DNA of 64,000 bases. It comes from Promethearchaeota archaeon. GTDB lineage: Archaea; Asgardarchaeota; Lokiarchaeia; Sigynarchaeales; SOKP01. Positions within the stretch are counted from its first letter, which is position 1; every line of letters begins with the position of its first letter. The notes under the pieces are model-generated. The model was not told where the DNA came from, searched no databases, and worked only from the letters and a program-made list of their open reading frames with translations. The translations under genes and the position numbers were made by a program. The stretch is taken from assembly GCA_019894875.1 (NCBI GenBank), contig JAGXNR010000008.1:3863-67862 (forward strand). Direction: 5' to 3'. Below, piece after piece: positions 8,846 through 50,345 of the stretch.

Positions 8846-9335
8846 GTCTTCTTATTATCATTATCAATTATTTCCTTAAGTTTTTCGAATGTTTCCTCAT
8901 CACTTATACTATAGAAATCTTTAGAATGTGAGAAATTTTAGTTTGAATTTTTTCTTATCTGATGCACCAAGCTAGTGTTCATGCAATTTTTCTTTTAAAC
9001 CCTAAATTATATCTTTAAGTTGAGTTTAAATTATATTGAATCATTTATTAGTTTTCTATTAGACAAAAGTCAAATTATTAAAAAGTGAGTTTCCAAAACA
9101 AAAATGGCATATCTTATGGAAAAATTGTGAAATTTAATCCTTAAAAGTGATAAATAATGAGTAAAAGAGTAGGAATAAGTTTTGGTATTATCGCAATGAT
9201 CATGACAATCTCAGCATTAGTGCTAACTGGATATACCGCATTCTTTCAAACACCCCAAACGAGTAAATTTATAATTAAATTTCCCTTCTAAAGAAATACT
9301 AGGCTATTTTCTACTAATAATATCCAATTATATAT
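8846..9335. other. Intergenic region, possible decayed small membrane-protein frame
   Basis: A short frame opens with ATG at 9158 behind an AAAGTGATAAATA leader but stops after 13 codons. A different frame from 9184 to 9291 reads as a hydrophobic helix (IIAMIMTISALVLTGYTAFF). One inserted base would join the two into a 44-residue membrane peptide, so this may be a frameshifted remnant. Nothing else is supported. Confidence 0.35.
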
Positions 9336-9509
9336 TTATCTGTTTTTTTTCATATCTTTATGTTTTTTATTTTTTTTTTTTTCTCGTCTCGCAGCACATA
9401 AGTCAGCATTAGAAAAAGGGATCGAGAAAAACCCTACTAAGTGCGGTCTCCCGAATAAGTGAGGTGGCGCATTCCTAACCTTTGGTTTATATTCTTTAGC
9501 ACGAGCCAT
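9336..9509 (-). CDS. Possible small basic protein, 57 residues, in a GC-rich block
   Basis: A reverse-strand frame from ATG 9509 to TAA at 9336-9338 encodes 57 residues. The first 40 (MARAKEYKPKVRNAPPHLFG onward) look structured and the last 17 are almost all Lys and Arg, encoded partly by an A13 run. The DNA at about 9383-9485 is clearly richer in G and C than its surroundings. A TATA-like stretch lies at about 9540-9556. The plus strand of the same block is also open for about 25 codons and can fold into a hairpin, so a small RNA is an alternative. No family was recognised. Confidence 0.3.
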   Translation of the reverse strand: MARAKEYKPKVRNAPPHLFGRPHLVGFFSIPFSNADLCAARREKKKNKKHKDMKKNR

Positions 9510-9866
9510 AGATTATTCCCAATAGAAATAAGAGCATTTCATATTTATAGATATATGCTATTTTGAAGTCAAATCTGTATAACCACGATCTAATCCTGTA
9601 GTCTTATAAAAAAATTAATTTTATTGGTATCAGGAAAATATAAAGCCCTTTTTACCCTCCTTCTTTATTTGTTTTATTTTTTTCTTTGGCGACAATATCA
9701 TAGAAGTAACAAAACTACATAAGATGATCTAATAATTATATCCCGTAATGTTCTTGATGACATCATTTTAAAAATTATCAAATTCGGTGTAAATGTGAAA
9801 GATACTTTAAGGTAAAAGATGATGATGTACTGAATATCTTTAACATTTGGTAATGAGAAAATAATA
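9510..9866. other. Intergenic region, nothing recognised
   Basis: AT-rich sequence with no frame, tRNA or repeat that I can support, apart from the possible TATA-like element for the small basic gene near 9540-9556. Confidence 0.4.
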
Positions 9867-10109
9867 TTAAAAAGGGAAAAATAACAATAGCCATGCTATT
9901 ATATCTTTAAATGTTCGTGGAGTTTCTACTTTGTGCATAGCTTGATTACGCATGAATGGTGAAACTTCAGAAGATGGTAATGGTTTCTTTATATTTCCCT
10001 CTTGGGTGGGATAGAAAGGTTTTACTTCCCGGCGTATAATTACCTTTCTTTTTTTAGCTCTTGATTTATTCTCATTTTGCATTTCAAATTTCATGATAAA
10101 TATTATCAT
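9867..10109 (-). CDS. Hypothetical small basic protein with hydrophobic C-terminus
   Basis: A frame of up to 80 residues. The true start may be Met6 or Met10. The middle is basic and proline-rich (KSRAKKRKVIIRREVKPFYP), then SSEVSPFMRNQAMHKVETPR, and the chain ends in a hydrophobic FKDIIAWLLLFFPF that could be a short tail anchor. The composition and the open frame support a real gene, but I recognise no family and no operon partner. Confidence 0.4.
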   Translation of the reverse strand: MIIFIMKFEMQNENKSRAKKRKVIIRREVKPFYPTQEGNIKKPLPSSEVSPFMRNQAMHKVETPRTFKDIIAWLLLFFPF

Positions 10110-35458: not shown

Positions 35459-36595
35459 TTAATATCTTGAAGGAGTTTTAGATTTTATTTTTTGTTTTGG
35501 GATTTGTTTTAACTTTCTTATTTCTTTTTCAAAATTTCTTTTTTCATTTAGAAATCTTTGTTTATCTTTCTCTAATTTTTCCCTCTCCCGTTTTATTGCA
35601 TTTTTATCAGTACTTAATTCTGATTTCTCCCTTTCTAAACGTCTGAGATCATTATTTAATTTTTTATATTTTTCTTCTAGGGAGGGAATCTTGGTAGATA
35701 TTGAGTTATATTTACTTTCTGCTCGTGGAATCTTACTTTGTAATTCTTTCATTCTTGTTTCTTGTTGTCTTTTTCTGTTTTCCAGACTTTTTACATCATT
35801 ATCTACTTTAATTTTATATTTTCTTAGATCATCCTTTTTCTTTTCAATATCTCGAGCCTTCAGGTTTAGTTCGTCTTTTTGAATTCGCAATTTTTCTTTA
35901 TTATCTTTTAATTTTCTTTTTTCCTCAGCAATCCTGTTTTTTTCATCAGTTAATTCCCTCTTTAGATTATTCACCTCTTTATTGAGAAAGTCTCTCTCCG
36001 TAGTTAAATGTTTAATTTCATTTCTTAAATCTTCTAACTTATCCTCTAAATCCTCGTTAGTCCTCTCTAGTGCTGTTTTTCTTCTCTCCATACCAGGTAT
36101 TTTTGTTTTTATGTCTTTAAATTGATCGTCCATTCTTTGTTTTTCTTGGTCTAATAAGTTTTTTTCATTTCTCACATCTTCTCTTAACTTTTCTAATTTC
36201 TTCTGAAATCTCTCTAATTCATCTCTCTTTTGATTTATCGCATCATTTTCATTTCTAATTTTATCTTTTAGTTGTTGTTCTCTTGCATCTAACTCAATTT
36301 TATGCTTTTCTATGTCATTTTTAACTTTTTTTAAGCTGTTCTGAACGATATCCCGCTTTTCACGGAGGTTCTTTAATTCAATTTCTTCATTTTTCCGTAT
36401 TTTTTCAAGGTCTTCTATGTTTTCTCTGTAATTTTCAATTTGGGCAACATGGTTTTCCCATTCACTCTTTTCTTTATTTAATAAAATTCTCTCTTTCTTT
36501 ATCTTTTTTAATAATTTCTTATCAGCAATTATCTCCCCTTCATCATCGGGGGTTTTTTCTCTAATTTGATGCTTGGGGATAGAGTTATCATTCAT
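35459..36595 (-). CDS. Long coiled-coil protein
   Basis: A 378-residue protein that is almost entirely coiled coil (about residues 25-365): charged heptads rich in Lys, Glu, Arg, Asp and Leu, with breaks at DIKTKIPGMERRK and QSKIPRAESK/ISTKIPSLEEK. No ATPase head, hinge or membrane segment is visible, so it is not an SMC protein, though it resembles SMC/Rad50 arms. It is the first gene of the operon with the nucleotidyltransferase and EndoQ. A scaffold or DNA-tethering role is an inference. The start is the first ATG, with a short unstructured N-terminus. Confidence 0.8.
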   Translation of the reverse strand: MNDNSIPKHQIREKTPDDEGEIIADKKLLKKIKKERILLNKEKSEWENHVAQIENYRENIEDLEKIRKNEEIELKNLREKRDIVQNSLKKVKNDIEKHKIELDAREQQLKDKIRNENDAINQKRDELERFQKKLEKLREDVRNEKNLLDQEKQRMDDQFKDIKTKIPGMERRKTALERTNEDLEDKLEDLRNEIKHLTTERDFLNKEVNNLKRELTDEKNRIAEEKRKLKDNKEKLRIQKDELNLKARDIEKKKDDLRKYKIKVDNDVKSLENRKRQQETRMKELQSKIPRAESKYNSISTKIPSLEEKYKKLNNDLRRLEREKSELSTDKNAIKREREKLEKDKQRFLNEKRNFEKEIRKLKQIPKQKIKSKTPSRY

Positions 36596-38207: not shown

Positions 38208-38630
38208 ATGGGATTTGACAATGAATTTGATGAAGAATTAGAATTTGATGAAGATTTGGAAGATTTAGATGAAGATTTGGAAGATGAGGATTTAGAGGAT
38301 GAGAATTTGGAAGATACCCCCCCAGACATTCCTAAAAGAGATATAAATTCCAAAACTCCCGTTGAGAGGGTTACAACTGAAGGGAAAAAGATTTCAGTGT
38401 ATTTTATCTCAACCATTGGGCCTGAGAAAAAGCAAAAATTGCTTATTAACACGGGAAATCTTGTTGGGGATATTAAACAAACGGTAGCAAGCTTGTTTGC
38501 TTTGGATCCAGCTGATTTCTATTTTTCAGCACTAGGTATAACTATGGATGAACAAACCCCCTTAAAAGATTATGAAGTAGATGATGGAGATGATATACTT
38601 CTAATCCCAGCTAGTATTGCAGGTAAATAA
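38208..38630 (+). CDS. Ubiquitin-like protein UBL1 with acidic N-terminal arm
   Basis: A 140-residue protein. Residues 5-36 are a low-complexity acidic arm of Asp, Glu and Leu repeats, then a linker with Pro (about 38-58). The beta-grasp domain spans about 60-138: KKISVYFISTIGPEKK, DIKQTVASLFALDPADFYF, and LKDYEVDDGDDILLIPAS. The LKDY turn corresponds to the LSDYN of ubiquitin. It ends in IAGK, with Gly139 and one extra Lys140, not GlyGly. JAMM trimming of the Lys would expose Gly139 for activation. It is about 70% alike to UBL2 in the core. It stands alone, convergent with the membrane UBL. Confidence 0.85.
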   Translation: MGFDNEFDEELEFDEDLEDLDEDLEDEDLEDENLEDTPPDIPKRDINSKTPVERVTTEGKKISVYFISTIGPEKKQKLLINTGNLVGDIKQTVASLFALDPADFYFSALGITMDEQTPLKDYEVDDGDDILLIPASIAGK

Positions 38631-38670
38631 TTAGAAACATTAAAGTTTGTAGGATTTAGAATTTCTTTTT

Positions 38671-39465
38671 TTATTTTCTCTCTTTACTTGAGGGAATCAG
38701 AGCAATTTCATCGTCATCATCAATATCGTAGTCTTGTATTTTCTTGTCATCAGACAGTAAGATTCCCCCTGAAGATAAAAGAAAATCCCCCAATTCATAA
38801 TTAAATAGTACTCCAACTCTCTCTTTAATAATATTAATTAATTCGGTTGTGTCTACAATGATCAACTTTGTTATTTCGCCAGGTTCAACTAAAGATCTTA
38901 TGTAAACACGGATTTGGCCCTTTAGGTTAACCGTATTCTTAGGGGGAATATAAAATATCTCCTCATCAGTTTGATCTTTGTTCTTAAGCATATTGTCGAT
39001 TAATACCTTTCGCTCTTCTTTATCAAAATAGAGCATTTCTCTAATAAATAATATCTTGTCAAGCTTTGATAATCCAAGAGAGTTTATCTTTTCTAATTCT
39101 TCCTTACTAAAAACCGAAAAAATATATTTATTAATAATAGGTATATCCTCATAAGATTCACTTGAATCAAGGTATTCTTCTATTGAAGGCAAAGCCTCAA
39201 GATATTCATCGATGAAATTCTCTTCTATCTTGTTTATAGACTTAGGTTTCGGTGAATATTTCTTGTCTCTTATTTTATCGTATTGATAACCATTAGATTG
39301 GATAACTGTGTAGATTGTACTAGTAGAAAGAACCGCGACACTCCCAATTGTTAGAATAAGAAATAATGGGGTATTGTTTATACCCAATAGGAAATAACCA
39401 ATGTAAATTAGAATAAAAATTGCGTAAAGAGTAATAACGCTAAGTATTCTATATTTTTTCCTCAT
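38671..39465 (-). CDS. Membrane-anchored ubiquitin-like protein
   Basis: A 264-residue protein. Two N-terminal membrane helices (about 8-28 and 32-55) are followed by a cytoplasmic acidic helical region (about 75-172, EENFIDEYLEALPSIEEYLD) and a C-terminal beta-grasp domain (about 183-260) homologous to UBL1 and UBL2: GQIRVYIRSLVEPGE, FLLSSGGILLSDD, IQDYDIDDDDEIALIPSS. It ends SSKERK, without a C-terminal Gly, so it cannot be activated like UBL1/2. It may be a membrane receptor, decoy or regulator. It lies 83 bp downstream of the winged-helix gene on the same strand, probably the same transcript. Confidence 0.82.
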   Translation of the reverse strand: MRKKYRILSVITLYAIFILIYIGYFLLGINNTPLFLILTIGSVAVLSTSTIYTVIQSNGYQYDKIRDKKYSPKPKSINKIEENFIDEYLEALPSIEEYLDSSESYEDIPIINKYIFSVFSKEELEKINSLGLSKLDKILFIREMLYFDKEERKVLIDNMLKNKDQTDEEIFYIPPKNTVNLKGQIRVYIRSLVEPGEITKLIIVDTTELINIIKERVGVLFNYELGDFLLSSGGILLSDDKKIQDYDIDDDDEIALIPSSKERK

Positions 39466-39548
39466 AATTTTTTACTAAAGTTGTTGGTCTAATTTTCAAA
39501 TATATAATTTATCATATAAATTCCATTGGAATAATTTTGGAGTTTTAA

Positions 39549-40223
39549 TTATCTATCACCATGAATTAACTTCCTAACCTTATTATACCTCTTAAGATTT
39601 AATTTGAATAATATTCTATTTTTTTCTTTCTCAGTTTCTACTAATTTCAGATTTTCTAGAATCGAGATGTATTTTTTTATAGTTGTGTGATTTTTTTCCA
39701 TCCCATTTGCAATTTCAGTGATTTTCAATGGCTTTTCTTCTTTACTCAGAAATTCTATTATTTTTAGAACGATATCTTTATTCAAATAAAAGTAAAACTT
39801 ATCCAGCTTTGGGTTTGAATCAATTTCAAAGAAAATCCGATGGTTATTGAGTTTTTCTGACCTGACGAATTCAAATTTTTCTAAGCAAGATAGGTGCCAT
39901 AATGCTTGATTACTCCCAATCTTTAGGGTTTTCATAATATCATTAATGTTTGAGGGATTTCTTTTTATGAAATTATAAATTTCATTCCTTTTTGGATTTT
40001 CTATGATATTATTCTTCATTAATCTCGTTCCAGGGATGATTGTTTTCTTTTTTATTAATGATTTTATTATTAACTCAATTTTATTTTTGTTTAAGTTAGG
40101 GTTTAGTCTTACCCTATTATTTACGAATTCTATTATATCAGTGATCGAAAAGAATGTCTTTTTTGCTAGATATTCTTTTACTAATCCAAGAACAATAGAT
40201 TCTAAACTATCCAAGGAACTCAT
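39549..40223 (-). CDS. Two-winged-helix transcriptional regulator
   Basis: A 224-residue protein with a N-terminal helical domain and two winged helices: one at about 75-132 (IRR...NDIMKTLKIGSNQALWHLSCLEK, wing SEKLNNHRIFFEI) and one at about 155-212 (KITEIANGMEKNHTTIKKYISILENLKLV, wing KEKNRILFKL). This resembles archaeal ArsR/MarR-like tandem regulators. It is transcribed with the membrane UBL and divergently from the SNF2 gene, so it may regulate the locus. An AT-only palindrome at 40296-40316 lies between. The signal is unknown. Confidence 0.75.
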   Translation of the reverse strand: MSSLDSLESIVLGLVKEYLAKKTFFSITDIIEFVNNRVRLNPNLNKNKIELIIKSLIKKKTIIPGTRLMKNNIIENPKRNEIYNFIKRNPSNINDIMKTLKIGSNQALWHLSCLEKFEFVRSEKLNNHRIFFEIDSNPKLDKFYFYLNKDIVLKIIEFLSKEEKPLKITEIANGMEKNHTTIKKYISILENLKLVETEKEKNRILFKLNLKRYNKVRKLIHGDR

Positions 40224-40535
40224 AAGCGACTTTTGGTTTTTTGTTTCATTACTTTGTTTATATAATTAAAAACTCTCTCTACAATAATATTTTACTTATA
40301 TTATATATTAATATAATAGGTATCCATACAATTTATAATCTAATTTCTTTCACCTTCTACTATATTCTTTTGTATTCCTAAAAATGGTTCGAAAAACTTC
40401 AAAATTTTCTGTATCATTTTTAGTTTTTATTAGGTTAAATCTTATCTTTTAGGAATGAATAATGTTTTTATCGAGAAATAGTAAAAAATAAGTTTAAAGA
40501 AACATTTCAAATTCTGAAGGAGGAATGCATCATTT
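40224..40535. other. Divergent promoter region of the UBL locus
   Basis: The gap between the winged-helix and SNF2 genes has the AT palindrome (40296-40316) and other promoter-like AT stretches. Near its plus-strand end GAAGGAGGAATG forms a very strong ribosome-binding site. It leads to an ATG at 40525 whose frame ends after seven codons. Confidence 0.45.
40296..40316. promoter_or_regulatory. AT-only inverted repeat, 8-5-8
   Basis: TTATATTA and TAATATAA flank TATAT, exactly complementary. It lies 73-93 bp upstream of the winged-helix gene start, so it could be its operator or core promoter. The AT richness makes chance likely. Confidence 0.25.
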
Positions 40536-42878
40536 TTGGAGTTTATAGAAGATTTTTCTAATAATAGGAAGTTTGATCCTAAATTTCAAGTGAAACTTAA
40601 GCCAATCTTTCATAATATAGTGGAATTCTATATCTTGATAGAATTACCTAAAAACGAGTCGAATAGATGGCCAATCAAATTTTATCTAAAATTCCATAAT
40701 GAAAACTTTTTTACTCCATTGGCTGATTTGTGGAAATATGATGAATTATTTAATGAAAAGTTTGTGAGTGTTCTATTAAAAAAAAAGGAGTTTCTAAACT
40801 TGTTATTAGATTCGATAAGAATAGCAGTTAAAGTTTTTCCTTCCTTAAATCGCGCTTTAAAGAATAATTATCCTCAAAATATTGAGATGACGTCTTCCGA
40901 AATTTCTGAATTTCTTAACCATCCAATAGAATTGCTCAAGCATATTGGATTTAAGATTCAATACCCCACCAAATTAAGATTGTCACAGAAGAGAGGTTTA
41001 TCTGCTAGATTATTGATCGGATCCAAATCATATAAGGGTAAATCTGATTTTAGCTTAGATTCTCTCTTAGATTTCAGATGGGAAATTCTTTTTTTCGGGA
41101 AACCTATAGGATTAGATGAATTGAAAAGATTATTGAAATTGAATAATCCGTTGATAAAGTGGAGAAGTAATAAATGGATATTCATTAACAAGGAAGATCT
41201 ATCCTTTTTAAGATGGATTTACGATAGTAATGGATTTTCTGGTAAAATGATGACATCAGATGTAATAAAATTAGAGTTATTAGATAAATATACAGATTTA
41301 GGCTTTAGAAGAGATTATAAAATTAAATTATTAGGAAATCTTAGAACTAAAATAAAAAAAATCAAGAATAAGTTAGATTTTAAGTTACTAGAGCCCCCGA
41401 AAGGTTTCTTGGGTGAATTAAGGGATTATCAACAAGCAGGACTTTCTTGGTTAGCGATGTTATGTGATATGGGGATAGGAGTATGCTTAGGAGATGATAT
41501 GGGCCTCGGTAAGACCATACAAATTCTAGCTTATCTTTTATACCGACTAGAGAATTATCCTAATGAAGAAGGTAGCATTTTAGTGGTGTGTCCTACATCC
41601 TTATTAACTAACTGGGAGCATGAGATAATAAAATTTGCTCCTAAATTAAAAGTTCTGAAATACTATGGACATAATAGGGTGAATCTCCGTGATAAGAGAG
41701 AGGACTTTCTTATTGCTCACCAAATAATTCTAACTTCCTACGGGATCATAAGAAACGACATCGATTTCTTAAAGAATATACAATTTAGTGGTATTATAAT
41801 TGATGAGTCTACAAATATTAAGAATCCTAAATCTAAAAGAGCCAAATCCATTTACTTGTTAAAAGGAATTTTTAGAATCGCATTAAGTGGTACACCCATA
41901 GAGAACCGTCTTGAGGAATTATGGTCGCTTTTCAATTTTCTAAATCCTGGGCTATTAGGTTCATTGAATGAGTTCAAGAAAATATTTGTAAATCCTATTC
42001 AGAATTATCAAAATGCTGAAAAAATCAAGAAACTAAAATCTATTATAGATCCCTTTATACTAAGACGTTTGAAGATAGATAAAAAAGTAATTAAAGATTT
42101 ACCAGAAAAAAATGAAATTAAAATATATGTCAACTTATCTGAATCCCAAATAAGCCTATACACAAAAATTGTGGATGAAATCGTTGAAAATATCAGAGAA
42201 AATTATAATAGTGTAAAAACGCGAAATGGATTAGTACTTAAACTATTAACTAAGCTAAAACAGCTGTGCAATCACCCATTACAATATCTAAAGATTGATC
42301 CAACTAAATATGATTTTAATAAAAATCTCAAGGATTTTCTAGAACAATCTCCTAAAATAGCGAGAATTTTTGATATTGTTGAGAACATTCTTGAAAATGA
42401 CCAAAAAGTTCTAATATTTTCACAGTATAAAACGCTGGGAGATATTTTACTAATGGCTTTTACCACTAAATTTGGGAAACTAGTATCATTTTATCACGGT
42501 AGCTTGACCCCCAACCAACGTGATGGGATAGTTAAGGATTTTCAATCGCGTAAGGAGAGAAGTTCAAAAATTCTAATTGCTTCCCTAAAAGCTGGTGGTT
42601 TTGGGTTAAATTTAACCCAGGGAACTACGGTTATACACGTAGATCGGTGGTGGAATCCTAGTACGGAGTCACAAGCCACTGATAGGGCTTATCGGATTGG
42701 TCAAGATCAGAATGTTAATGTCTATAAATTTGTAGCTACAGGAACAATAGAAGAAAAGATTGATAAACTGTTGGAAGAAAAACGAAAGTTATCAAGGCAG
42801 ATTATAACTCCTACGTCTTCAATTATTTCAAGATTACCTATAGATGAGATTGAGGAACTATTTTCCCTCATGCCCTGA
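40536..42878 (+). CDS. SNF2-family DNA-dependent ATPase/helicase
   Basis: A 780-residue SWI2/SNF2 protein. The N-terminal half (about 1-290) has a SNF2-associated domain (ISEFLNHPIELLKHIGFKIQ) typical of prokaryotic members. The motor begins with LRDYQQAGLSWL and GDDMGLGKT (319-327), then DEST (motif II), SGTPIENRLEELWS, and the helicase C part KVLIFSQYKTLGD, IASLKAGGFGLNLT, RWWNPSTESQATDRAYRIGQ. It translocates on DNA and remodels nucleoprotein. No RING or ubiquitin-binding motif is visible. The start is TTG 40536 with GGAGG 13-17 bases before; an out-of-frame ATG at 40525 competes. It lies directly upstream of UBL2. Confidence 0.92.
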   Translation: MEFIEDFSNNRKFDPKFQVKLKPIFHNIVEFYILIELPKNESNRWPIKFYLKFHNENFFTPLADLWKYDELFNEKFVSVLLKKKEFLNLLLDSIRIAVKVFPSLNRALKNNYPQNIEMTSSEISEFLNHPIELLKHIGFKIQYPTKLRLSQKRGLSARLLIGSKSYKGKSDFSLDSLLDFRWEILFFGKPIGLDELKRLLKLNNPLIKWRSNKWIFINKEDLSFLRWIYDSNGFSGKMMTSDVIKLELLDKYTDLGFRRDYKIKLLGNLRTKIKKIKNKLDFKLLEPPKGFLGELRDYQQAGLSWLAMLCDMGIGVCLGDDMGLGKTIQILAYLLYRLENYPNEEGSILVVCPTSLLTNWEHEIIKFAPKLKVLKYYGHNRVNLRDKREDFLIAHQIILTSYGIIRNDIDFLKNIQFSGIIIDESTNIKNPKSKRAKSIYLLKGIFRIALSGTPIENRLEELWSLFNFLNPGLLGSLNEFKKIFVNPIQNYQNAEKIKKLKSIIDPFILRRLKIDKKVIKDLPEKNEIKIYVNLSESQISLYTKIVDEIVENIRENYNSVKTRNGLVLKLLTKLKQLCNHPLQYLKIDPTKYDFNKNLKDFLEQSPKIARIFDIVENILENDQKVLIFSQYKTLGDILLMAFTTKFGKLVSFYHGSLTPNQRDGIVKDFQSRKERSSKILIASLKAGGFGLNLTQGTTVIHVDRWWNPSTESQATDRAYRIGQDQNVNVYKFVATGTIEEKIDKLLEEKRKLSRQIITPTSSIISRLPIDEIEELFSLMP

Positions 42879-43050
42879 TAAGTAATAAGATTCTTAACCC
42901 TATTCCTTTTCTCATCTCAAATAACAAGAAAAATACTAAATTTTCATCAAAAAGCATTTTTTTAATAATTTTTCGATTTTAAAATTTTACGCATCCCAAT
43001 CCGACTATGACCTGTTATTATTATTTTACTACATTTTCATTCCAATGGGT

Positions 43051-43058
43051 TTTATAAT
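43051..43058 (+). promoter_or_regulatory. TATA-like box of the UBL2 operon
   Basis: TTTATAAT in GGGTTTTATAATACC lies 62 bases before the UBL2 ATG (43113). It fits an archaeal TATA box driving the UBL2-E1-E2-JAMM-RING operon with a leader of about 35 bases. Confidence 0.45.
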
Positions 43059-43112
43059 ACCATTTTAACTCCTTAAAGATAATAAAAAATAAAAAAATTG
43101 GAAGTGATATGT

Positions 43113-43451
43113 ATGAGTTTTGACGAATTTGATGAGGATTTAGGTGGGGAGAAACCAGTAAAATCAAAAACCCCTGCATCTAAAACCCCTTCAGCAGGAA
43201 GAAAAATGACATTGTACTTTATGAGTACAATTGGTCCAGGCGAAAAAAAGGAAAAATTAACTGTGAATGATGGAAATCGGGTTAATGATATTAAACAAAC
43301 ATTAGGAAATTTATATGGACTTGATCCTAATGATTTTCACCTTAGTTCAGGTGGAGTTACTCTAGAAGAATCTGATAAATTATCAGATTACAGTGTAAAC
43401 GATGGCGACGACATTCTTTTGATTCCCGCGAGTACTGCCGGGAAAGCTTAA
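43113..43451 (+). CDS. Ubiquitin-like protein UBL2
   Basis: A 112-residue protein from ATG 43113, preceded by GGAAGTGATATGT; the earlier TTG at 43098 would add five residues. A short acidic N-terminus (MSFDEFDEDLGGEK) and a KTP/SKTP linker lead to the beta-grasp domain (about 30-108): RKMTLYFMSTIGPGEKK, NDIKQTLGNLYGLDPNDFHL, LSDYSVNDGDDILLIPAS. The end STAGKA places Gly110 two residues before the C-terminus, so trimming of KA would give an AG terminus, not LRGG as in ubiquitin. It starts the operon with E1, E2 and JAMM and is the likely conjugated modifier. Confidence 0.85.
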   Translation: MSFDEFDEDLGGEKPVKSKTPASKTPSAGRKMTLYFMSTIGPGEKKEKLTVNDGNRVNDIKQTLGNLYGLDPNDFHLSSGGVTLEESDKLSDYSVNDGDDILLIPASTAGKA

Positions 43452-43536
43452 ATATTTTTCTTAATATATTATAAAGTAAGGTATAAAATAAGGGCATTAA
43501 GCCCTTCAACTTTTTTTATTTTTTAAATAAATATTA

Positions 43537-44772
43537 ATGGTAATAAATATGGATAAGGATTCAAAATTTTTCGGAAAAAATTTATCAGTGGAAGAGAGAA
43601 ATTTGTATGACCGTCAATTTCGTCTTGAGGGATGGTCTCAGAAATTGGTAAAAAATTCAAGGATATTAATAGCAGGTGTCGGTGGTTTAGGTTGCGAAAT
43701 TGCGAAAAATCTATCGATGCTTGGTATCGGTCATTTAGATCTTGTTGATTTGGATATTATTGAACACTCTAATTTGAATCGTCAAATTCTTTTTACAGGT
43801 GCAAAGACCGGAGAGCCTAAAGCGGTTGTTGCTGCGAGAAAACTTAAGGAAATAAATCCTAATATAATAGCTAAAGGATATCATACCACTTTAGAGCGAT
43901 TAAATCCCTCAATCTATCAAGCCGCTGATGTTATAATCGGGGGGCTTGATTCGATGAATGCACGTCTAAACTTAAATGCTCAATGTGTTAGGTTCAGAAT
44001 CCCTCTTGTTGATGGAGGTGTATCTGGATATCATGGTCATGTGTACTCAATCTTCCCTTATAAAAATGCTTGCTATGAGTGCAATCCCTTACCAGTAGTA
44101 GAGAATGATGATATGGCTGCTTGCACAGTAGTAGGAATTCCTCGAAAAAGAATTCATTGTGTTTTTAAAGGAGACATGGCATTTAAAGAAAAATTTGATA
44201 GAGATCCTATTCCTAAAAATGTAAATGATATAGAATTCATTCAAAAGGTTGCAAATAAATTAGTCCATGAACATAATTTCTTACCAGAATACACGCTAGA
44301 TGATATTGTAAAAATAATTGATAGACATGATCCGGGAATAATAACAATTAATGCCGTTATTTCGGCATTACAATCCCATGAAGCAGTGAAAATTCTCCAT
44401 TGGAAAAAAGGTCATAAAGGTCTGGGGGAACCCATTCAAAATTATATAGTTTTTAATGGAATGACTATGAAATTTTATCATATTGAAAAAAAGAGAAATA
44501 CCGCATGTTCTCAGTGTGGAAAACATGTGAGAAGAGTTTCAATAAAATTAAAACCTCATTCACCATGTGAGAATATAATAAAAATATTAACAAAAAATGG
44601 GTTTAAACCAGATCCCGATTCAGAGCCAATTCTCACCTTACTAGATTTTAATGATATCAGAATGATTGATTTAGAACAGAGTTCAATTGAGAATGGCTTA
44701 AGAAATTATGAATTTATAACCGCAGCAGGTTTCAAGGATGGGGAAATTTTTGTAACCTTAAAACTAAAATAA
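43537..44772 (+). CDS. E1-like ubiquitin-activating enzyme (Uba3-like)
   Basis: A 411-residue E1. The adenylation domain shows AGVGGLGCE (46-54, ATP loop), DLDIIEHSNLNRQ (71-83), and GLDSMNARLNLN. Zinc ligands C179 and C182 pair with C324 and C327. The catalytic cysteine is probably C196 in AACTVVGIPRKRIHC, which mirrors the CTIASMPR-HC block of eukaryotic Uba3. The C-terminal about 75 residues (ILTLLDFNDIRMIDL...AGFKDGEIFVTLKLK) look like the ubiquitin-fold domain that recruits E2 in Uba3/Uba2. It would adenylate UBL2 and pass it to the E2. It lies 85 bp after UBL2. Met5 is an alternative start. Confidence 0.92.
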   Translation: MVINMDKDSKFFGKNLSVEERNLYDRQFRLEGWSQKLVKNSRILIAGVGGLGCEIAKNLSMLGIGHLDLVDLDIIEHSNLNRQILFTGAKTGEPKAVVAARKLKEINPNIIAKGYHTTLERLNPSIYQAADVIIGGLDSMNARLNLNAQCVRFRIPLVDGGVSGYHGHVYSIFPYKNACYECNPLPVVENDDMAACTVVGIPRKRIHCVFKGDMAFKEKFDRDPIPKNVNDIEFIQKVANKLVHEHNFLPEYTLDDIVKIIDRHDPGIITINAVISALQSHEAVKILHWKKGHKGLGEPIQNYIVFNGMTMKFYHIEKKRNTACSQCGKHVRRVSIKLKPHSPCENIIKILTKNGFKPDPDSEPILTLLDFNDIRMIDLEQSSIENGLRNYEFITAAGFKDGEIFVTLKLK

Positions 44773-44846
44773 AAATTTAACCAAAAAAATCAAATAATAA
44801 AAAAAATAGAAAATTAAAAATAAAAATTATAAAAAGGTTTGATAAA

Positions 44847-45374
44847 ATGAGTATAAGAAGTAGTCGTATTTCCCAAGACTTTGCTGGATTAAAAAAGCTG
44901 TTAAAGTCAGGTACTATAATTCAATTAAAACCATTTAATCCTAAGAAGAAGAGCATAGATCATTTAGCTATGGCAATAAAAGGCCCAAAAGGTACTGTAT
45001 ATGCTGGAGGTGTGTTTAAATTAGAAATGAAATTCCCTTCCCAGTATCCTAGGCAACCACCTTTCGTTAGAATGCATACTCCAATATGGCATCCAAATTT
45101 TTGGCCAAAACCGACCGAATATAAAGGACAGAGAAATATATGTCTAGCTTTAGTAGATCCCTCGTTGATTGGTAAAAAAGGTGGATGGAGTCCATCAAAA
45201 ACAGCAGTTACAATTGTTCAAGCAATTATTGCTATGTTAAACACCCATGGTAAATTCGTAAACCCAAAAGATGTTTTTAATAAAAAAGCAGCAATCGAAA
45301 TGATGAAAAATCCAAAAGTTTTCGATAAAAAAGTTAAAACCTTAGTTAAGAAGTATGCAAATAAGCAATGGTGA
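44847..45374 (+). CDS. E2-like ubiquitin-conjugating enzyme
   Basis: A 175-residue E2 (UBC fold). The HPN motif is at residues 82-84 (TPIWHPNFWPK), and the catalytic Cys is C99 in GQRNICLALVDP. The PxxYPxxPP-type strand SQYPRQPPFVRMHTPIWHP and the GWSPSKTAVTIVQAIIAML helix after the Cys are classical UBC features. The insertion between HPN and Cys and the LVDPSLIGKKGG loop are longer than in many E2s. A basic C-terminal tail (KKVKTLVKKYANKQW) may bind DNA, RNA or acidic UBL arms. It should receive UBL2 from the E1. The gap to the E1 gene is 74 bp; JAMM starts eight bases after it. Confidence 0.93.
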   Translation: MSIRSSRISQDFAGLKKLLKSGTIIQLKPFNPKKKSIDHLAMAIKGPKGTVYAGGVFKLEMKFPSQYPRQPPFVRMHTPIWHPNFWPKPTEYKGQRNICLALVDPSLIGKKGGWSPSKTAVTIVQAIIAMLNTHGKFVNPKDVFNKKAAIEMMKNPKVFDKKVKTLVKKYANKQW

Positions 45375-45382
45375 TTTAACTC

Positions 45383-46195
45383 ATGGCAGACAAAGAATCA
45401 GCTAATAATTCAATTAAAGATGTAATTAAGAAGAAGATAAAAGAAAAAATCAAAAAGGAGTTATTAGATGAAATATGTGAAGAGCTTAAATTAGAAGAAG
45501 AAGAATTAACAGAAGAAATAGCATTGATGCTTACAAGTAAACCATCATCCAAACCAGTCATAATGCATTCTAAGGAGCCTACGGCTAAAATAGTAGAGAA
45601 AGATAACGTTGAAACTCAAATAGAACAGGAAATCCAAAAGGAAACTTACATTTCGGTGAAAGCAATTCTCAAAATCGCTAGCCATGCGCTTAAATATGCA
45701 AACTCTAAAATTCCAAAGAAAAATTGGGTGGAGGTTATTGGGCTTCTTGGTGGAAAGATGGATAAAAATAATATTCTCCATATCGAAGATGCATATCCAA
45801 TGGGTCATGGTACAGCAGTATATGCGGAAATTAAGGATTATAAGAACTATGTAAGGGCATTTCAAGATATTAAGAAACAGAAATTATTTACGTGTGGATG
45901 GTACCATTCACATCCAACATTTGGTTGCTTCATGTCTAGGGAAGATATGGGTACTCAAGAAAGGTATCAAAAACTCTGGGATAAAGCCGTTGCACTCGTT
46001 ATAGATCCTTACCTTATAGATGGAACTTCTACAGGTTTTGAGATTTATCGTGCAAATTTGAAGTCAAAAACATGGTATCCTTTGGTATATGGGATTAATG
46101 GATCATTAGATATACGTATGTTGCCAGATATTTTAGCGTTTATGAATCCTATTATTCAGGGGAAACCTATTTATTTAGAATATGATGAAGATTAA
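45383..46195 (+). CDS. Rpn11-like JAMM/MPN+ metalloprotease (deubiquitinase-like)
   Basis: A 270-residue protein. The JAMM zinc site is complete: E117 in VEVIGLLGG, H175 and H177 in GWYHSHPTFG, S185 and D188 in CFMSREDMG, close to Rpn11/CSN5 (GWYHSHPGFGC). An N-terminal charged helical arm (about 8-50, KKKIKEKIKKELLDEICEEL) may be a coiled coil for binding. The enzyme would process UBL precursors by cutting after the Ala-Gly and release UBLs from targets. It lies eight bases after E2 and 29 bases before the RING-like gene. The UBLs carry one or two residues after Gly, so a protease is needed. Confidence 0.92.
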   Translation: MADKESANNSIKDVIKKKIKEKIKKELLDEICEELKLEEEELTEEIALMLTSKPSSKPVIMHSKEPTAKIVEKDNVETQIEQEIQKETYISVKAILKIASHALKYANSKIPKKNWVEVIGLLGGKMDKNNILHIEDAYPMGHGTAVYAEIKDYKNYVRAFQDIKKQKLFTCGWYHSHPTFGCFMSREDMGTQERYQKLWDKAVALVIDPYLIDGTSTGFEIYRANLKSKTWYPLVYGINGSLDIRMLPDILAFMNPIIQGKPIYLEYDED

Positions 46196-46224
46196 ATTAA
46201 GCAATAAATGGGGGTTATTAAGCC

Positions 46225-47430
46225 GTGGTGAAAATTAAATCAATAGCGTTATTTTTAATTGCTTTTTCAACTATCGGTATAATACACGGTGCTATTCTAA
46301 ATTCTTTTAATGTATTTGTAAGTTGGTTTTTAATTGGATTATGGCTTATTTATTCTTTTAAAGTATTAAAAAATATTAAACAATATCGCGAATATCGCAG
46401 TCCACATAATACTGCTTTTTTTACCGTTGGTCCTGTTTTTGTTGGTATTTTTTATTCAATTTGGGGTAATTTTACAGGATTACTAGGTGAAAATCTATTG
46501 GTAAGTACAGATTTTTACTTAAGTTGGTGGAGCATTTTATTTGGATTTCCCTATGTACTTTATGGTTCAATTTCATTATACCGTTGTTTTAAAAAATATC
46601 ATGTAATTTATTTTGGAACAAAATCTGTAAATGCACGGAAATTTGGTTATATATTAGGTATCTCGATAGTTTTTTTCATAACTGTCTTTTGGATAAGTTT
46701 TTATTCAGTTATCGACTTCTATGATTCTCTAATAATTCCACTACATTTTTTAATAGATCTTAATCTTTTAATATTGCTTATCAGCTCTACAATAATAATA
46801 ATTATTCCCGGTGTCTTTGGATCTCACAGGAATTTGCCCCAATTAACAAGAAATTACATTTCACAACGTACAAATAGATTAAACCAATTGACATCCCCTA
46901 AAAGAGATAGAAGTCCTGATGGATTAAGAACGAATGTTCGCACTTCAAGTAGATCATCTCCAACTCCATCAGCCAGAACTGTTACCAATAGATCAAGATC
47001 AGTAAGTCAATCAACCAGATCGACACCAACATCTAAAAATCGGGCTAAAACCACCAGATCTAAAACAACTAGTCGAACCGTGAGTAGAGGGCCAACAGGA
47101 ACTCGAGTAAGGACGCAACAAAGTACCAAAAAAATAAGTAACTTTAACATATATAAACCAAAAGCAGGACGTTTATCACCAGAGGACTTTAAATGTATTT
47201 TTTGCTTTAATTTGCCAAAAATTCCTCAAGATAACGGTAGAGGAATAATATTGTGTCCAAATTGTAGATATCCTGCTCATGCAGATGAATTTAAGGATTG
47301 GTTGCAAAGTTCAAATCTCTGCTCTCGATGTAATTCCCCTATTCCAGCAAGTTATAAGAGAAATCCTAAAATAATCTCGACCAAAAATTATCTAATTGTT
47401 GTAAAGCATTTTATTGGCAATAAGAGATAA
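46225..47430 (+). CDS. Multipass membrane protein with C-terminal RING-like zinc finger (candidate E3)
   Basis: A 401-residue protein starting at GTG. It has about six membrane helices (roughly 6-24, 28-48, 66-86, 100-118, 142-162, 170-196), a very basic Ser/Thr/Arg-rich disordered linker (about 215-305), and a C-terminal zinc finger: C324, C327, C344, C347, H352, C366, C369 (DFKCIFCF, LCPNCRYPAHADEF, SNLCSRCN). The CxxC ... CxxC-x4-H-x13-CxxC plan resembles a RING with one ligand unclear. A RING at the membrane in an E1-E2-JAMM operon suggests a membrane E3 ligase; this is inferred. The linker could be phosphorylated or modified. Confidence 0.75.
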   Translation: MVKIKSIALFLIAFSTIGIIHGAILNSFNVFVSWFLIGLWLIYSFKVLKNIKQYREYRSPHNTAFFTVGPVFVGIFYSIWGNFTGLLGENLLVSTDFYLSWWSILFGFPYVLYGSISLYRCFKKYHVIYFGTKSVNARKFGYILGISIVFFITVFWISFYSVIDFYDSLIIPLHFLIDLNLLILLISSTIIIIIPGVFGSHRNLPQLTRNYISQRTNRLNQLTSPKRDRSPDGLRTNVRTSSRSSPTPSARTVTNRSRSVSQSTRSTPTSKNRAKTTRSKTTSRTVSRGPTGTRVRTQQSTKKISNFNIYKPKAGRLSPEDFKCIFCFNLPKIPQDNGRGIILCPNCRYPAHADEFKDWLQSSNLCSRCNSPIPASYKRNPKIISTKNYLIVVKHFIGNKR

Positions 47431-47435
47431 AGGGT

Positions 47436-48398
47436 TCATGAAATTTTAGGAATCGAATTTCCTAATTTTAATTTTTTTTTTAAATCCCCTATTGTAGTTT
47501 TTAACTCGGCATAAACATTATGAGGATGGATTGATTCAAAACTTTCAATCTTAAATTCAATTTCATAATCGTCTTCTAGATTTGGGAAGTTTCCTATAAT
47601 AAAGTTTTTTGCCATCTCTCTAATTACATCTTCTGAAAATAAGGGTTTTAAATGGGCACTTCTTACCAATTCAGCTTCTTCAGGTCTTTTTAACACAGAT
47701 TGTATTTTACCGCTCATAGATTCTTCTATTACATCAATGATATCTAAAACATCAAGTTTTTGACCGGTTAATTCTTTTATTTGAACGATTATGGTACCAT
47801 TAGACCTTTGATTATGTGAAGAGAAAGGAAGGATATTGATAAGCTTATTAAGATCTTCTTCAGTAACATGTATATCTTTTCTTGTTTTGATAATTTCAGC
47901 AGCATATTCCTGAGACATTTCTTTTGCACATGGGCATACTGTCATTCCTACAGCACTTGCCCCAATAAAATAAGTATATTCAATTTCTCCTGAAGATGGT
48001 CTTTTAGCCTTAACAAAAGATATAATCTCATATGATTTTTGGATGTTTCTAGTATTATTTTCCCTGACTTGAACTATAATCTTTCCCTTTAATTTCACTT
48101 CCGCTTTGGATGTATAAGGGTGTCTTTCTAACAATTTTTTAATGATTCTGTCACCTACTAGTTCAATTGTTGGGGTTGGTTTGTATATTACTTCATTTAT
48201 GACTTCTTCAATAGTTTCGGAAGTCCGAGACATGTGAATACCTCGCTGTTGGGCAGGAAGATCAATTAAAGCGGAGATTTTTGGGTAAAAAGAGTATTTC
48301 TTATTCTCTTGTACTATTTCTACTTTTTTTTCGAGCTCAACTATACCAACCTTGTCAATAGCGATGTCTATTGCTGACCCAGAATCTTGTAAATCCAT
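47436..48398 (-). CDS. mptA: GTP cyclohydrolase MptA (GTP cyclohydrolase IV)
   Basis: A 320-residue MptA/FolE2-type enzyme. It turns GTP into 7,8-dihydroneopterin 2',3'-cyclic phosphate, the first step to methanopterin. Motifs seen are DLPAQQRGIHMSRTSE, a metal-binding TVCPCAKEMSQEY and the LPFSSHNQRS block. The length matches archaeal MptA. It is convergent with the RING-like gene (five-base gap) and upstream of the F420 genes on the other strand, so it is transcribed separately. It supports tetrahydromethanopterin synthesis together with mptD, mptG and the DHPS-like gene further right. Confidence 0.92.
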   Translation of the reverse strand: MDLQDSGSAIDIAIDKVGIVELEKKVEIVQENKKYSFYPKISALIDLPAQQRGIHMSRTSETIEEVINEVIYKPTPTIELVGDRIIKKLLERHPYTSKAEVKLKGKIIVQVRENNTRNIQKSYEIISFVKAKRPSSGEIEYTYFIGASAVGMTVCPCAKEMSQEYAAEIIKTRKDIHVTEEDLNKLINILPFSSHNQRSNGTIIVQIKELTGQKLDVLDIIDVIEESMSGKIQSVLKRPEEAELVRSAHLKPLFSEDVIREMAKNFIIGNFPNLEDDYEIEFKIESFESIHPHNVYAELKTTIGDLKKKLKLGNSIPKIS

Positions 48399-48517
48399 TT
48401 TGAATTTAGGAATTTTGTATCACCAGTAATAAAAAATATTTTATTTAGTTCTAATCTTAAAAAAGATTAGATAAAATATAAAATAATTTCAAAAAATTTG
48501 AATATCTTAAGAATTCA

Positions 48518-49687
48518 ATGCCATTAAAAAGTATTTTTAGCGAGTACGCATTAATTGGAGAGGATTTAGAATTTAAGCAAGATGTTTCAATAGAAATTGA
48601 TGAAAATGGGATCATTTCAAAAATACACTATACAAATCCAGAGGATTCCGTAATAAATTTTGAAAGTAATCATTGCTATTTACTACTACCGGGTTTTATT
48701 AATTCTCATACTCATATTGGTGATAATTTTGCGAAAGAACTTGGTTTTAATAAAGAATTAACTGATATAGTAGCTCCACCATTTGGCCTTAAACATAGGT
48801 TACTTAGACAAACACCAAAAGATATTATTATTAAAGGGATTAAAAATGCTGCTTTAGAAATGCTCTCTAACGGGATTACCTGCTTTATTGATTTTAGAGA
48901 GGGTGGAGTCGAGGGTATAAATCTTATAAAAGAGGCTTTAGAAGTATCCCCAATAAAATGTTTGATCTTTGGTAGGTTTATGGATGAAAGCGAAATAGAA
49001 TTAATTTTTAATCTAGCTGATGGAGTGGGATTATCTAGTTATAAGCTCATTTCTAATTCTACTAAGACTTTTGTAGAGGAATCAAAACAAAATTATAAAA
49101 AATTAGTTGCTTGTCATTGTGCAGAGAAAAGTCGTATTCCTGATTTAATCAATAGGGTAGTTAATGACAATTTAGTTGATATTATCATTCATGGTACGAA
49201 ATTTACTAAAGAAGATTTAGTGAGGATTCAAGCAACTAAGAAATCACTTATTTTATGTCCCCGCTGTAATGGATATTTTGGGCTGGGATTTCCTCCAATT
49301 ACAGAGATATTAAAACTAGGAATTCCTATATCTTTAGGTACAGACAATTCAATGATAAATAATTCAGATTTATTTGAAGAAATGCGTTATCTATATAGAA
49401 TTTCTAGAGTACTTGGTAATTATGATAAAACGATACTATTATCATCAAAAGAACTCTTAAAAATGGTTACAGTTAACGCTGCGAAAAATTTTCATTTATG
49501 GATCGAACGTGGTTCAATTTCAGAAGGCAAATACGCAGATTTCTTTGCAATTGATCTAAAAGAGCCTAATTTTTATACACTTAACCTAAATGAAAGCAAT
49601 ATTTTTGATGTTATTGTACAAAGAACAGGAACAGCGAATATTAAAAGAACTTATATAAGAGGAGAAGTAGTTTTTGAAAGAAACTGA
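48518..49687 (+). CDS. Amidohydrolase, candidate pyrimidine deaminase of riboflavin/F420 synthesis
   Basis: A 389-residue ATZ/TRZ-type amidohydrolase. The metal site is complete: H64-x-H66 (NSHTHIGDN), H200 and E203 (ACHCAEK), H225 (IIHGTK), D276 (GTDNS). This group deaminates or dechlorinates heterocycles. Its last 14 bases overlap the RibD-type reductase (49674), which is followed by cofG and cofH. In archaea the reductase product must be deaminated to 5-amino-6-ribitylaminouracil phosphate, and the deaminase had not been identified as far as I know. The overlap and order make this enzyme a good candidate; that role is inferred. Confidence 0.85.
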   Translation: MPLKSIFSEYALIGEDLEFKQDVSIEIDENGIISKIHYTNPEDSVINFESNHCYLLLPGFINSHTHIGDNFAKELGFNKELTDIVAPPFGLKHRLLRQTPKDIIIKGIKNAALEMLSNGITCFIDFREGGVEGINLIKEALEVSPIKCLIFGRFMDESEIELIFNLADGVGLSSYKLISNSTKTFVEESKQNYKKLVACHCAEKSRIPDLINRVVNDNLVDIIIHGTKFTKEDLVRIQATKKSLILCPRCNGYFGLGFPPITEILKLGIPISLGTDNSMINNSDLFEEMRYLYRISRVLGNYDKTILLSSKELLKMVTVNAAKNFHLWIERGSISEGKYADFFAIDLKEPNFYTLNLNESNIFDVIVQRTGTANIKRTYIRGEVVFERN

Positions 49688-50345
49688 AAAACCTTATATC
49701 ATTTTAAGTTCAGCAATGACTATTGATGGGAAGATTGCCTCAAAATCAGGAGATCCTGACCTTTCGGATGATGAAGACTGGAGGGAGGTTCATAAACTTC
49801 GTACAGAAGTAGATGGGATTATGGTAGGGAAGGGAACGATTCTAAAAGATAATCCGAAATTACATATTAAATTTTATGAACATCAAGGATATCTAAGGAT
49901 TGTTGTAGATAGTAATTTAAGCATTCCAATTGATTCTAATGTCATTTCATATCAACCAGAAACATATCCTACTATTATATGTACAACTGAAAATATTCCT
50001 GTCAATAAAATTAAAAGATATGAAGAAAAAAATGTGAGAATCCTACAAGCAGGGAAAGGAAACCGTGTTAATTTAATAAAACTCATGCCTCTTCTAAAGA
50101 AATTAGGATTAAATTCTATATTATTAGAAGGCGGAGGAACCTTGAATTGGAGTTTCATAGAAAATGATTTAATTGATGAAATACGCCTATCTGTTGCACC
50201 ATGGATTATTGGCGGGAAGGATGCTACAAGTCTGGTAGAGGGAATCGGTTTTAGTAAAATGAGTAAAGCCCCTAAATTTGAGTTACTCGAAGCAAGAACT
50301 AGAAATAATTATGTCATTTTAAGATATAAAAGGAAAATGAGATGA
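49674..50345 (+). CDS. 2,5-diamino-6-ribosylaminopyrimidinone 5'-phosphate reductase (RibD C-terminal type, ArfC)
   Basis: A 223-residue NADPH-dependent reductase of the RibD C-terminal family. Motifs: YIILSSAMTIDGKIAS, EVDGIMVGKGTILKDNP, LRIVVDSN and ILLEGGGTLNWSFIE, SVAPWIIGG. In archaea it reduces the ribosylamino to the ribitylamino phosphate intermediate of riboflavin and F420. The start at 49674 is a TTG reading through the end of the amidohydrolase gene (14-base overlap), and its stop overlaps cofG by four bases, a strong sign of translational coupling. The length fits ArfC homologs. Confidence 0.9.
   Translation: MKETEKPYIILSSAMTIDGKIASKSGDPDLSDDEDWREVHKLRTEVDGIMVGKGTILKDNPKLHIKFYEHQGYLRIVVDSNLSIPIDSNVISYQPETYPTIICTTENIPVNKIKRYEEKNVRILQAGKGNRVNLIKLMPLLKKLGLNSILLEGGGTLNWSFIENDLIDEIRLSVAPWIIGGKDATSLVEGIGFSKMSKAPKFELLEARTRNNYVILRYKRKMR

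Follow-up and report, generated by a model that had tools for sequence, protein, structure and literature searches.

Asgard archaea have been described as carrying ubiquitin gene Clusters I-III, and the cascade of Caldiarchaeum subterraneum, whose modifier ends in Gly-Gly (GG), has been reconstituted (PMC5654768); for Lokiarchaeota a discrete ubiquitin region has been reported (PMC9192718). Here we analyze a ubiquitin-like conjugation locus in a Lokiarchaeal genome, contained in a window of 64,000 nt (the whole stretch of DNA analyzed, to whose coordinates all positions below refer). Similarly to the Caldiarchaeum operon (ubiquitin, E1, E2, the srfp RING protein and Rpn11) and to the published Asgard clusters, it combines an activating enzyme (E1) of the ThiF family, a conjugating enzyme (E2) with an HPN motif and an Rpn11-like JAMM protease in an operonic layout, with a precursor extension on the modifier. 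In contrast, its soluble ubiquitin-like modifiers (UBLs) end in Ala-Gly, and the C-terminal Gly-Gly by which a Caldiarchaeum-type modifier would be recognized was not found. The small RING protein has as its counterpart a membrane zinc-finger protein of about 400 amino acids with several transmembrane (TM) helices and a RING-like C6H(E) motif, and the locus further differs by a tethered UBL lacking the Gly, a coiled-coil neighbour and, in related genomes, a GG ubiquitin existing in parallel. Asgard ubiquitin clusters as such are already established; of interest here are the proposed tail code, its breadth and its coexistence with GG ubiquitin. We propose that the locus probably encodes a second, tail-coded UBL cascade, likely to tag membrane-associated proteins and likely to remove the tags again. 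The basis of this proposal is the gene set, the intact catalytic residues, the invariant Ala-Gly and the presence in related genomes of separate GG ubiquitins and E1 types, all read from sequence.

The core of the locus is a five-gene operon on the plus strand. It opens with the soluble modifier UBLb (43113..43451, for which ATG 43113 is the best start placement), followed by the E1 (43537..44772; Pfam ThiF, 1.7e-57), the E2 (44847..45374; UQ_con, 6.9e-26), the JAMM protease (45383..46195; JAB, 4.1e-16) and the membrane zinc-finger protein, a candidate ligase (E3; 46225..47430). A second soluble modifier with an acidic N-terminal tail, UBLa, lies upstream on the same strand (38208..38630). Pfam ubiquitin scores were 1e-5 for UBLb, 2.5e-5 for the membrane UBL (mUBL) described below and 0.024 for UBLa; the last value is weak alone, and UBLa is supported by its 58% identity to UBLb. 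The original prediction, which had placed three UBLs, E1, E2, JAMM, a membrane RING-like protein, a SNF2 ATPase and a winged-helix regulator at this locus, held for the genes themselves: all open reading frames (ORFs) were present, with Pfam domains for the UBLs, E1, E2, JAMM, SNF2 and winged helix. Support extends to a complete UBL/E1/E2/JAMM cascade accompanied by a membrane zinc-finger protein. The prediction overlooked a coiled-coil gene at 35459-36595, the GG systems that exist in parallel in related genomes, and the Ala-Gly tail.

Diglycine is absent from both soluble modifiers. UBLa ends in IPASIAG followed by K and UBLb in IPASTAG followed by KA (Ala-Gly codons at 43437-43442), so that both share an Ala-Gly tail (IPxSxAG), after which homologues carry nothing or a short variable extension. 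We compared 33 Lokiarchaeota loci (L001-L033; a 34th, L034, from Ruminococcus, was left out of the counts), and neither these loci nor the homologue clusters counted below are independent events. The UBLb tail read IP[A/S]STAG in 32/32 loci, with 17 genes stopping at Gly and 15 adding 1-4 variable residues, and the UBLa tail IPAS[T/I/V]AG in 25/25. All 120 listed homologue clusters (of 973 homologues) had IPAS[T/I]AG at the end, 64 of them with nothing after it. A more divergent set gave IPxS[T/S]AG plus 0-13 residues in 112 of 118 newly listed clusters; the other six appear truncated or frameshifted, and none of the 118 ended in GG. The tail stayed constant while the remaining UBL sequence dropped to about 50% identity, and the penultimate Ala is as constrained as the invariant Gly. 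An invariant Gly with a variable or absent extension would be the pattern expected of a processed modifier precursor. PDB entries named 'putative ubiquitin' (8hm1-3) were among the profile matches obtained. A degenerate DNA pattern for GG and AG tails, run over 227 genomes, was too loose and uninformative.

The catalytic residues named in the original prediction proved invariant in the window and the relatives compared: E1 C196 in 47/47, the E2 H-P-N and C99 in 47/47, and JAMM E117/H175/H177/S185/D188 in 44/44. By sequence, the closest solved proteins of the E1 were the SUMO E1 UBA2 and the NEDD8 E1 UBA3 (132 bits each), those of the E2 were ubiquitin E2s, and that of the JAMM was Caldiarchaeum Rpn11 (6fjv, E 2e-15). 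The E1 alignment to UBA3 spans residues 35-356; the C-terminal 55 residues resemble, by eye only, an E2-binding ubiquitin-fold domain. With the NEDD8 and SUMO pathways (UBA3, UBA2; UBC-fold E2s; CSN5) the system has in common this most similar E1 and a dedicated UBL-E1 pair beside ubiquitin in one cell, and it is distinguished from them by a prokaryotic operon, a single-chain E1 without a partner subunit at the locus and the Ala-Gly tail. UFMylation (UFM1/UBA5/UFC1) shares a terminal single Gly after a non-Gly residue, and UFM1 also loses a short extension; UFC1 is not known to have an HPN. In contrast, the Pfam matches of the UBLs here are to ubiquitin, a UFM1 family being absent at E<=1, the E2 is UQ_con with HPN and the protease is a JAMM. 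Kinship to UFM1 was accordingly ruled out, the UBLs matching ubiquitin and the E1 and E2 not being UBA5/UFC1-like (59 bits for UBA5 versus 132). Among UBLs, the Val-Gly end of UFM1 has been called unique (PMC7602216, PMC12355090).

The JAMM was intact also in loci whose two UBL genes end exactly at Gly (for example L001), and because it is kept there, deconjugation is probably its main job. Caldiarchaeum Rpn11 (CsRpn11) has been reported to process both pro-ubiquitin and conjugates (PMC6043591, PMC5654768). It cleaves after GG and tolerates replacement of the last Gly by Ala, the penultimate position being suggested as more restricted (PMC6043591).

We then considered the membrane zinc-finger protein. 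By hydropathy it has four TM helices in the window copy, 4-6 in 28/28 Loki copies and 3-6 in 12 distant copies, and a basic linker rich in Ser, Arg and Thr joins the TM part of the window protein to its C-terminal zinc motif. This motif, Cx2C-x16-CPxC-x4-H-x2-E-x10-Cx2C (residues 324-369; 47194..47331, plus strand), kept its six Cys and His352 in 41/41 sequences and Glu355, at the eighth place, in 40/41 (window and relatives). With the Glu at the eighth place, the seven ligands would fit a RING-like layout, and the protein is likely a membrane E3. If so, its substrates would be membrane or membrane-proximal proteins; that the system acts at membranes, as originally proposed, is something we infer from this.

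The window E1 is 69-84% identical to the E1s of the 33 loci, which come from Lokiarchaeota metagenome-assembled genomes (MAGs), and 91% identical to that of genome G127. The order UBLb-E1-E2-JAMM was found in all 33 as far as each contig extends, with the zinc protein next in 28/33, the other five contigs ending before it. The recurrent Loki arrangement was coiled coil (-), UBLa (+), mUBL (-), winged helix (-) and then UBLb-E1-E2-JAMM-zinc protein (+). Beyond these, we examined L103-L117, 15 more distant loci whose E1s fall in the same clade (42-69% E1 identity). All five core genes were called in 13 of them, the E2 of L107 and the zinc protein of L110 being clipped at contig ends. In L105 a run of 100 N cuts the zinc protein, another gene starts after it, and a search of the rest of that genome gave no zinc domain; in L117 the UBL and the zinc domain were found by separate genome scans. 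L103 and L107 carry the same genes in a different order.

In a survey of 227 genomes from the phylum, 100 had this E1 type (best E <= 1e-90) and 109 the Ala-Gly UBL (E <= 1e-8). The E1 cut-off was picked after seeing the score gap, the next values being 2.9e-83 (L119, which groups with system B below) and 6.5e-80. All 100 genomes with this E1 carried the Ala-Gly UBL, and nine had the UBL without this E1 at the cut-off. A zinc-domain frame of at least 300 amino acids was present in 96 genomes, 94 of them with the Ala-Gly UBL; of the 100 E1 genomes, 90 had such a frame. These frames were picked by eye at E values up to about 1e-12, and the weaker long frames of G072, G075 and G077 were not counted. 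A protein named Candidatus Heimdallarchaeota EAX86_12250 matched the UBL of L106 with full identity over 97% of the UBL's length, and several relatives bear the name Hodarchaeales; by these names the gene set extends to Heimdallarchaeota/Hodarchaeales. The Hodarchaeales have been suggested to be the sister group of eukaryotes (PMC12077186). Co-conservation with the core had been set beforehand as the test of the membrane components: it was found widely for the zinc protein, and for the mUBL only in a Loki-like subset.

Other ubiquitin-like systems exist in related genomes. A distinct ubiquitin-like gene, whose product has the tail MATQAGG, occurred at 12 places in 11 of the 16 Loki genomes searched. 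The GG was visible in 11 of the 12, the frame in L046 breaking off earlier, and in the other five genomes the gene was not among the loci fetched. A ThiF search of six Loki genomes gave E1-type frames of about 530 amino acids (system B) in five, together with small E1s of about 290 amino acids. A third set, system C (L078, L079), comprises an E1 of about 292 amino acids, E2, JAMM and a UBL ending in ARVIGG. Two genomes grouping with a Heimdallarchaeota MAG, G065 (L122) and G067 (L121), have the Ala-Gly system and a second E1/E2/JAMM set whose UBL tail is IVPDQIKGG, and in L118 a UBL ending in EGG lies beside yet another E1. In a midpoint-rooted tree of 49 E1-like rows, none of them eukaryotic, the 30 rows from Ala-Gly loci grouped together (93/99); system B including L119 (99/99), system C (100/100) and the E1s of the second Heimdall-type sets (100/100) fell outside this group. 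So far Ala-Gly appears tied to one E1 clade, and the UBLs seen beside other E1s end in GG.

Two further genes accompany the modifiers. The mUBL (38671..39465, minus strand) starts with two TM helices, continues with a helical domain and closes with a ubiquitin fold whose basic C-terminal tail lacks the Gly; the Gly-less tail and the two TM helices were each seen in 25/25 loci. Its AlphaFold-type confidence score (pLDDT) was 79.8, and structure search returned the ubiquitin fold (best CsUb 6fno, E 1.2e-6) and, among the matches listed, no structural match to the helical domain besides its UBL. Because the terminal Gly is absent, the mUBL is predicted to be non-conjugatable in the usual way; of the three UBLs first proposed, all are present and two are conjugatable in principle. 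It was found in 25 of 28 Loki loci with enough upstream DNA, and also in L115. L025 and L027 had no mUBL alongside, and in L029 about 100 kb separates the upstream block from the core.

The coiled-coil gene (35459..36595, minus strand; 378 amino acids) lies outside the first-reported interval. It is present in 25/33 Loki loci and was found beside UBL genes in L108-L116 at 27-40% identity, a match to which coiled-coil likeness may add. Pfam gave generic coiled-coil matches only, below cut-off. A KTP motif, located near both ends of the window protein (residues 14 and 373), is common to the coil and the acidic N-terminal tails of the UBLs: it occurred 135 times in the 15,566 residues that coil and UBLs comprise versus 25 times in the 148,900 residues of all other ORFs called in the 33 loci, a 52-fold enrichment. 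A scan of one complete Loki chromosome for K[S/T]KTP gave 17 sites versus 13 in a reversed control, of which 6 fell in UBLs or coil, 8 outside any called ORF and 3 in called ORFs of other kinds; in that one chromosome there was no genome-wide excess beyond the system. The coil gene probably belongs to the unit. We predict that coil and UBL N-terminal tails bind one common partner or that the coil is a scaffold, and the window protein is a probable UBL scaffold or partner.

In the cascade that we propose, the JAMM would trim the short extension, where present, to expose Ala-Gly. The E1 would then adenylate the terminal Gly and load it on Cys196, the thioester would be handed to E2 Cys99, and the membrane zinc protein, acting as E3, would recruit the charged E2. 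The JAMM would reverse conjugation. The Ala-Gly tail could serve as the code separating this cascade from GG ubiquitin, and the mUBL as a tethered UBL for docking or regulation, which may be regulated together with the winged-helix protein. A bolder reading, which we hold tentatively and at somewhat less than even chances, is that Asgard archaea have two insulated ubiquitin worlds, one using GG and one, older than Loki, using Ala-Gly. In it the penultimate residue would sort E1 clades, and the Ala-Gly branch would be membrane-bound, with an embedded E3, a tethered UBL and a coil scaffold.

Several observations weigh against the proposed cascade or parts of it. Given the restriction of CsRpn11 at the penultimate place, an Ala there would call for an adapted JAMM. 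The support of the Ala-Gly E1 clade, 93, is just under the 95 mark of the tool. The mUBL was seen next to the core only within the Loki-like subset and is therefore not essential; the coil was not found in L103-L107, and the KTP counts are drawn from related loci. Strong zinc-domain matches occurred without an Ala-Gly UBL in two genomes (G037, G151), as did weak matches in long frames in G072, G075 and G077 (E about 1e-7), and 10 of the 100 E1 genomes had no long zinc-protein frame, which contig ends and runs of N explain only in part. Finally, the zinc domain had no significant family match in Pfam or PDB, its AlphaFold model was poor (pLDDT 63.4), and Foldseek gave nothing under E 0.1, the weak matches including WDR19, RNF4, Bmi1/Ring1B and Rad18.

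These zinc-domain results bear on the alternative that fares best, namely that the protein is a zinc-ribbon or treble-clef anchor, a substrate or a receptor, and that conjugation is cytosolic, carried out by the E2 alone or with another E3. Only seven of the eight RING ligands are present, plus the Glu, and the weak matches are mixed. In Pfam the best values among 21 members were E 0.002-0.005, alike for UBZ, zinc ribbons and zf-RING_16 (the latter 0.0048 at best and 0.049 for the window's own protein), while in PDB they included IFT-A fingers of WDR19 and IFT144, the best profile match being the IFT144 finger at E 0.03. The RING call of the original prediction is only weakly supported by profiles. 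Against the anchor stand the operon place after the JAMM across deep lineages, the invariance of the ligands and the RING structures among the weak Foldseek matches. A parallel architecture beside another Loki E1/E2/JAMM set also speaks against it: four multi-TM proteins next to system C carry a full eight-Cys RING-like motif at the same C-terminal place (hhalign probability only 52%). System C resembles the Ala-Gly locus in its component list, including the membrane-embedded protein with C-terminal zinc/RING-like motif, and differs in E1 clade, GG tail, full eight-Cys motif and, by eye, small-GTPase neighbours. On balance we regard a non-E3 role as rather unlikely, and favour the membrane E3.

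A second alternative is that of an ordinary Asgard ubiquitin operon, already in the published surveys, in which Ala-Gly is harmless and the enzymes are shared with GG ubiquitin. Asgard clusters of ubiquitin, E1, E2 and RING have indeed been published (PMC5654768, PMC9192718), and the E1, E2 and JAMM here are canonical. We consider this reading improbable, for the Ala is invariant and not drifting, and shared enzymes would be unneeded because GG ubiquitin (11/16 Loki genomes) and other E1 types (the six genomes searched) coexist with this E1. In addition, we found no mention of the membrane zinc protein, the mUBL or the coil in the available text of PMC5654768 and PMC9192718, whose supplements may draw the cluster. 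Nothing on this cluster was found in the available text of PMC11354881 and PMC10307638, and among the titles and abstract openings listed by a search of mostly open-access literature, none concerned an Ala-Gly Asgard modifier, a membrane RING-like partner or the coil gene. That the UBLs are sulfur carriers of the SAMP/Urm1 style or non-covalent domains, as the Gly-less mUBL and the relatives forming C-terminal UBL domains of large proteins (L109, L113) might suggest, is very unlikely, since sulfur carriers pair a UBL with an E1 and no E2, whereas here an E2 with HPN and Cys99 lies in the operon and, with an intact JAMM, accompanies UBL-E1 in the compared loci as far as contigs extend.

The second, tail-coded cascade would be an otherwise canonical one, with UBA2/UBA3-like E1 and HPN E2, whose modifier has an invariant Ala-Gly across close to half of the Asgard genomes sampled; among these are relatives of the proposed sister lineage of eukaryotes. 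Whether insulated UBL pathways and membrane E3s existed before the eukaryotic cell becomes a testable question; if the reading of two insulated worlds were true, the split between ubiquitin and other UBLs would predate eukaryotes. The tail also suggests that diGly-remnant proteomics would miss Ala-Gly modification in Asgard cultures.

Two more genes lie between the modifiers in the window. The winged-helix regulator (39549..40223, minus strand; HTH_5, 1.2e-10) is upstream of the mUBL on the same strand, and its gene is conserved next to that of the mUBL. The SNF2-family ATPase (40536..42878, plus strand; Pfam SNF2, 9.3e-72), first counted as part of the unit, was found in 2/33 Loki loci (L007, L026) and was ruled out as a component; it is a lineage-specific insertion. 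Downstream of the cluster, at 47436-50345, MptA-, amidohydrolase- and RibD-like genes were recognized by eye, as in most Loki loci reaching them; they are probably a conserved neighbourhood without functional link. ARAGORN found no tRNA within the 64-kb window.

Some loci showed other arrangements. In the single-contig Loki chromosome of G015 (CP070831; L029/L072) the locus is split between two strands: UBL-E1-E2-JAMM-zinc protein lies near 568 kb on one strand, and coil-UBLa-mUBL-winged helix-UBLb with a second E1 copy broken by a run of N lies at 668-672 kb on the other; another soluble UBL is located at 1827 kb. On contigs other than that of the E1 operon, an Ala-Gly-type UBL was paired with a frame of 206-233 amino acids bearing the same zinc domain (G121:C230, G123:C22, G124:C6 and G125:C325). 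System C was noted at L078:6457-8794 and 8880-9905 and in L079, beside the multi-TM RING-like proteins and small-GTPase-like genes. Finally, Ala-Gly UBLs were observed at the C-terminus of large proteins: in L109:11075-12814 fused to a HerA-like ATPase, in L113:4427-6121 after CDC48_N (below cut-off), VWA and a KSKTP linker, and in L116:13770-14657 after an N-terminal part without assignment. The fusions in L109 and L113 hint at links to ATPase/unfoldase machinery.

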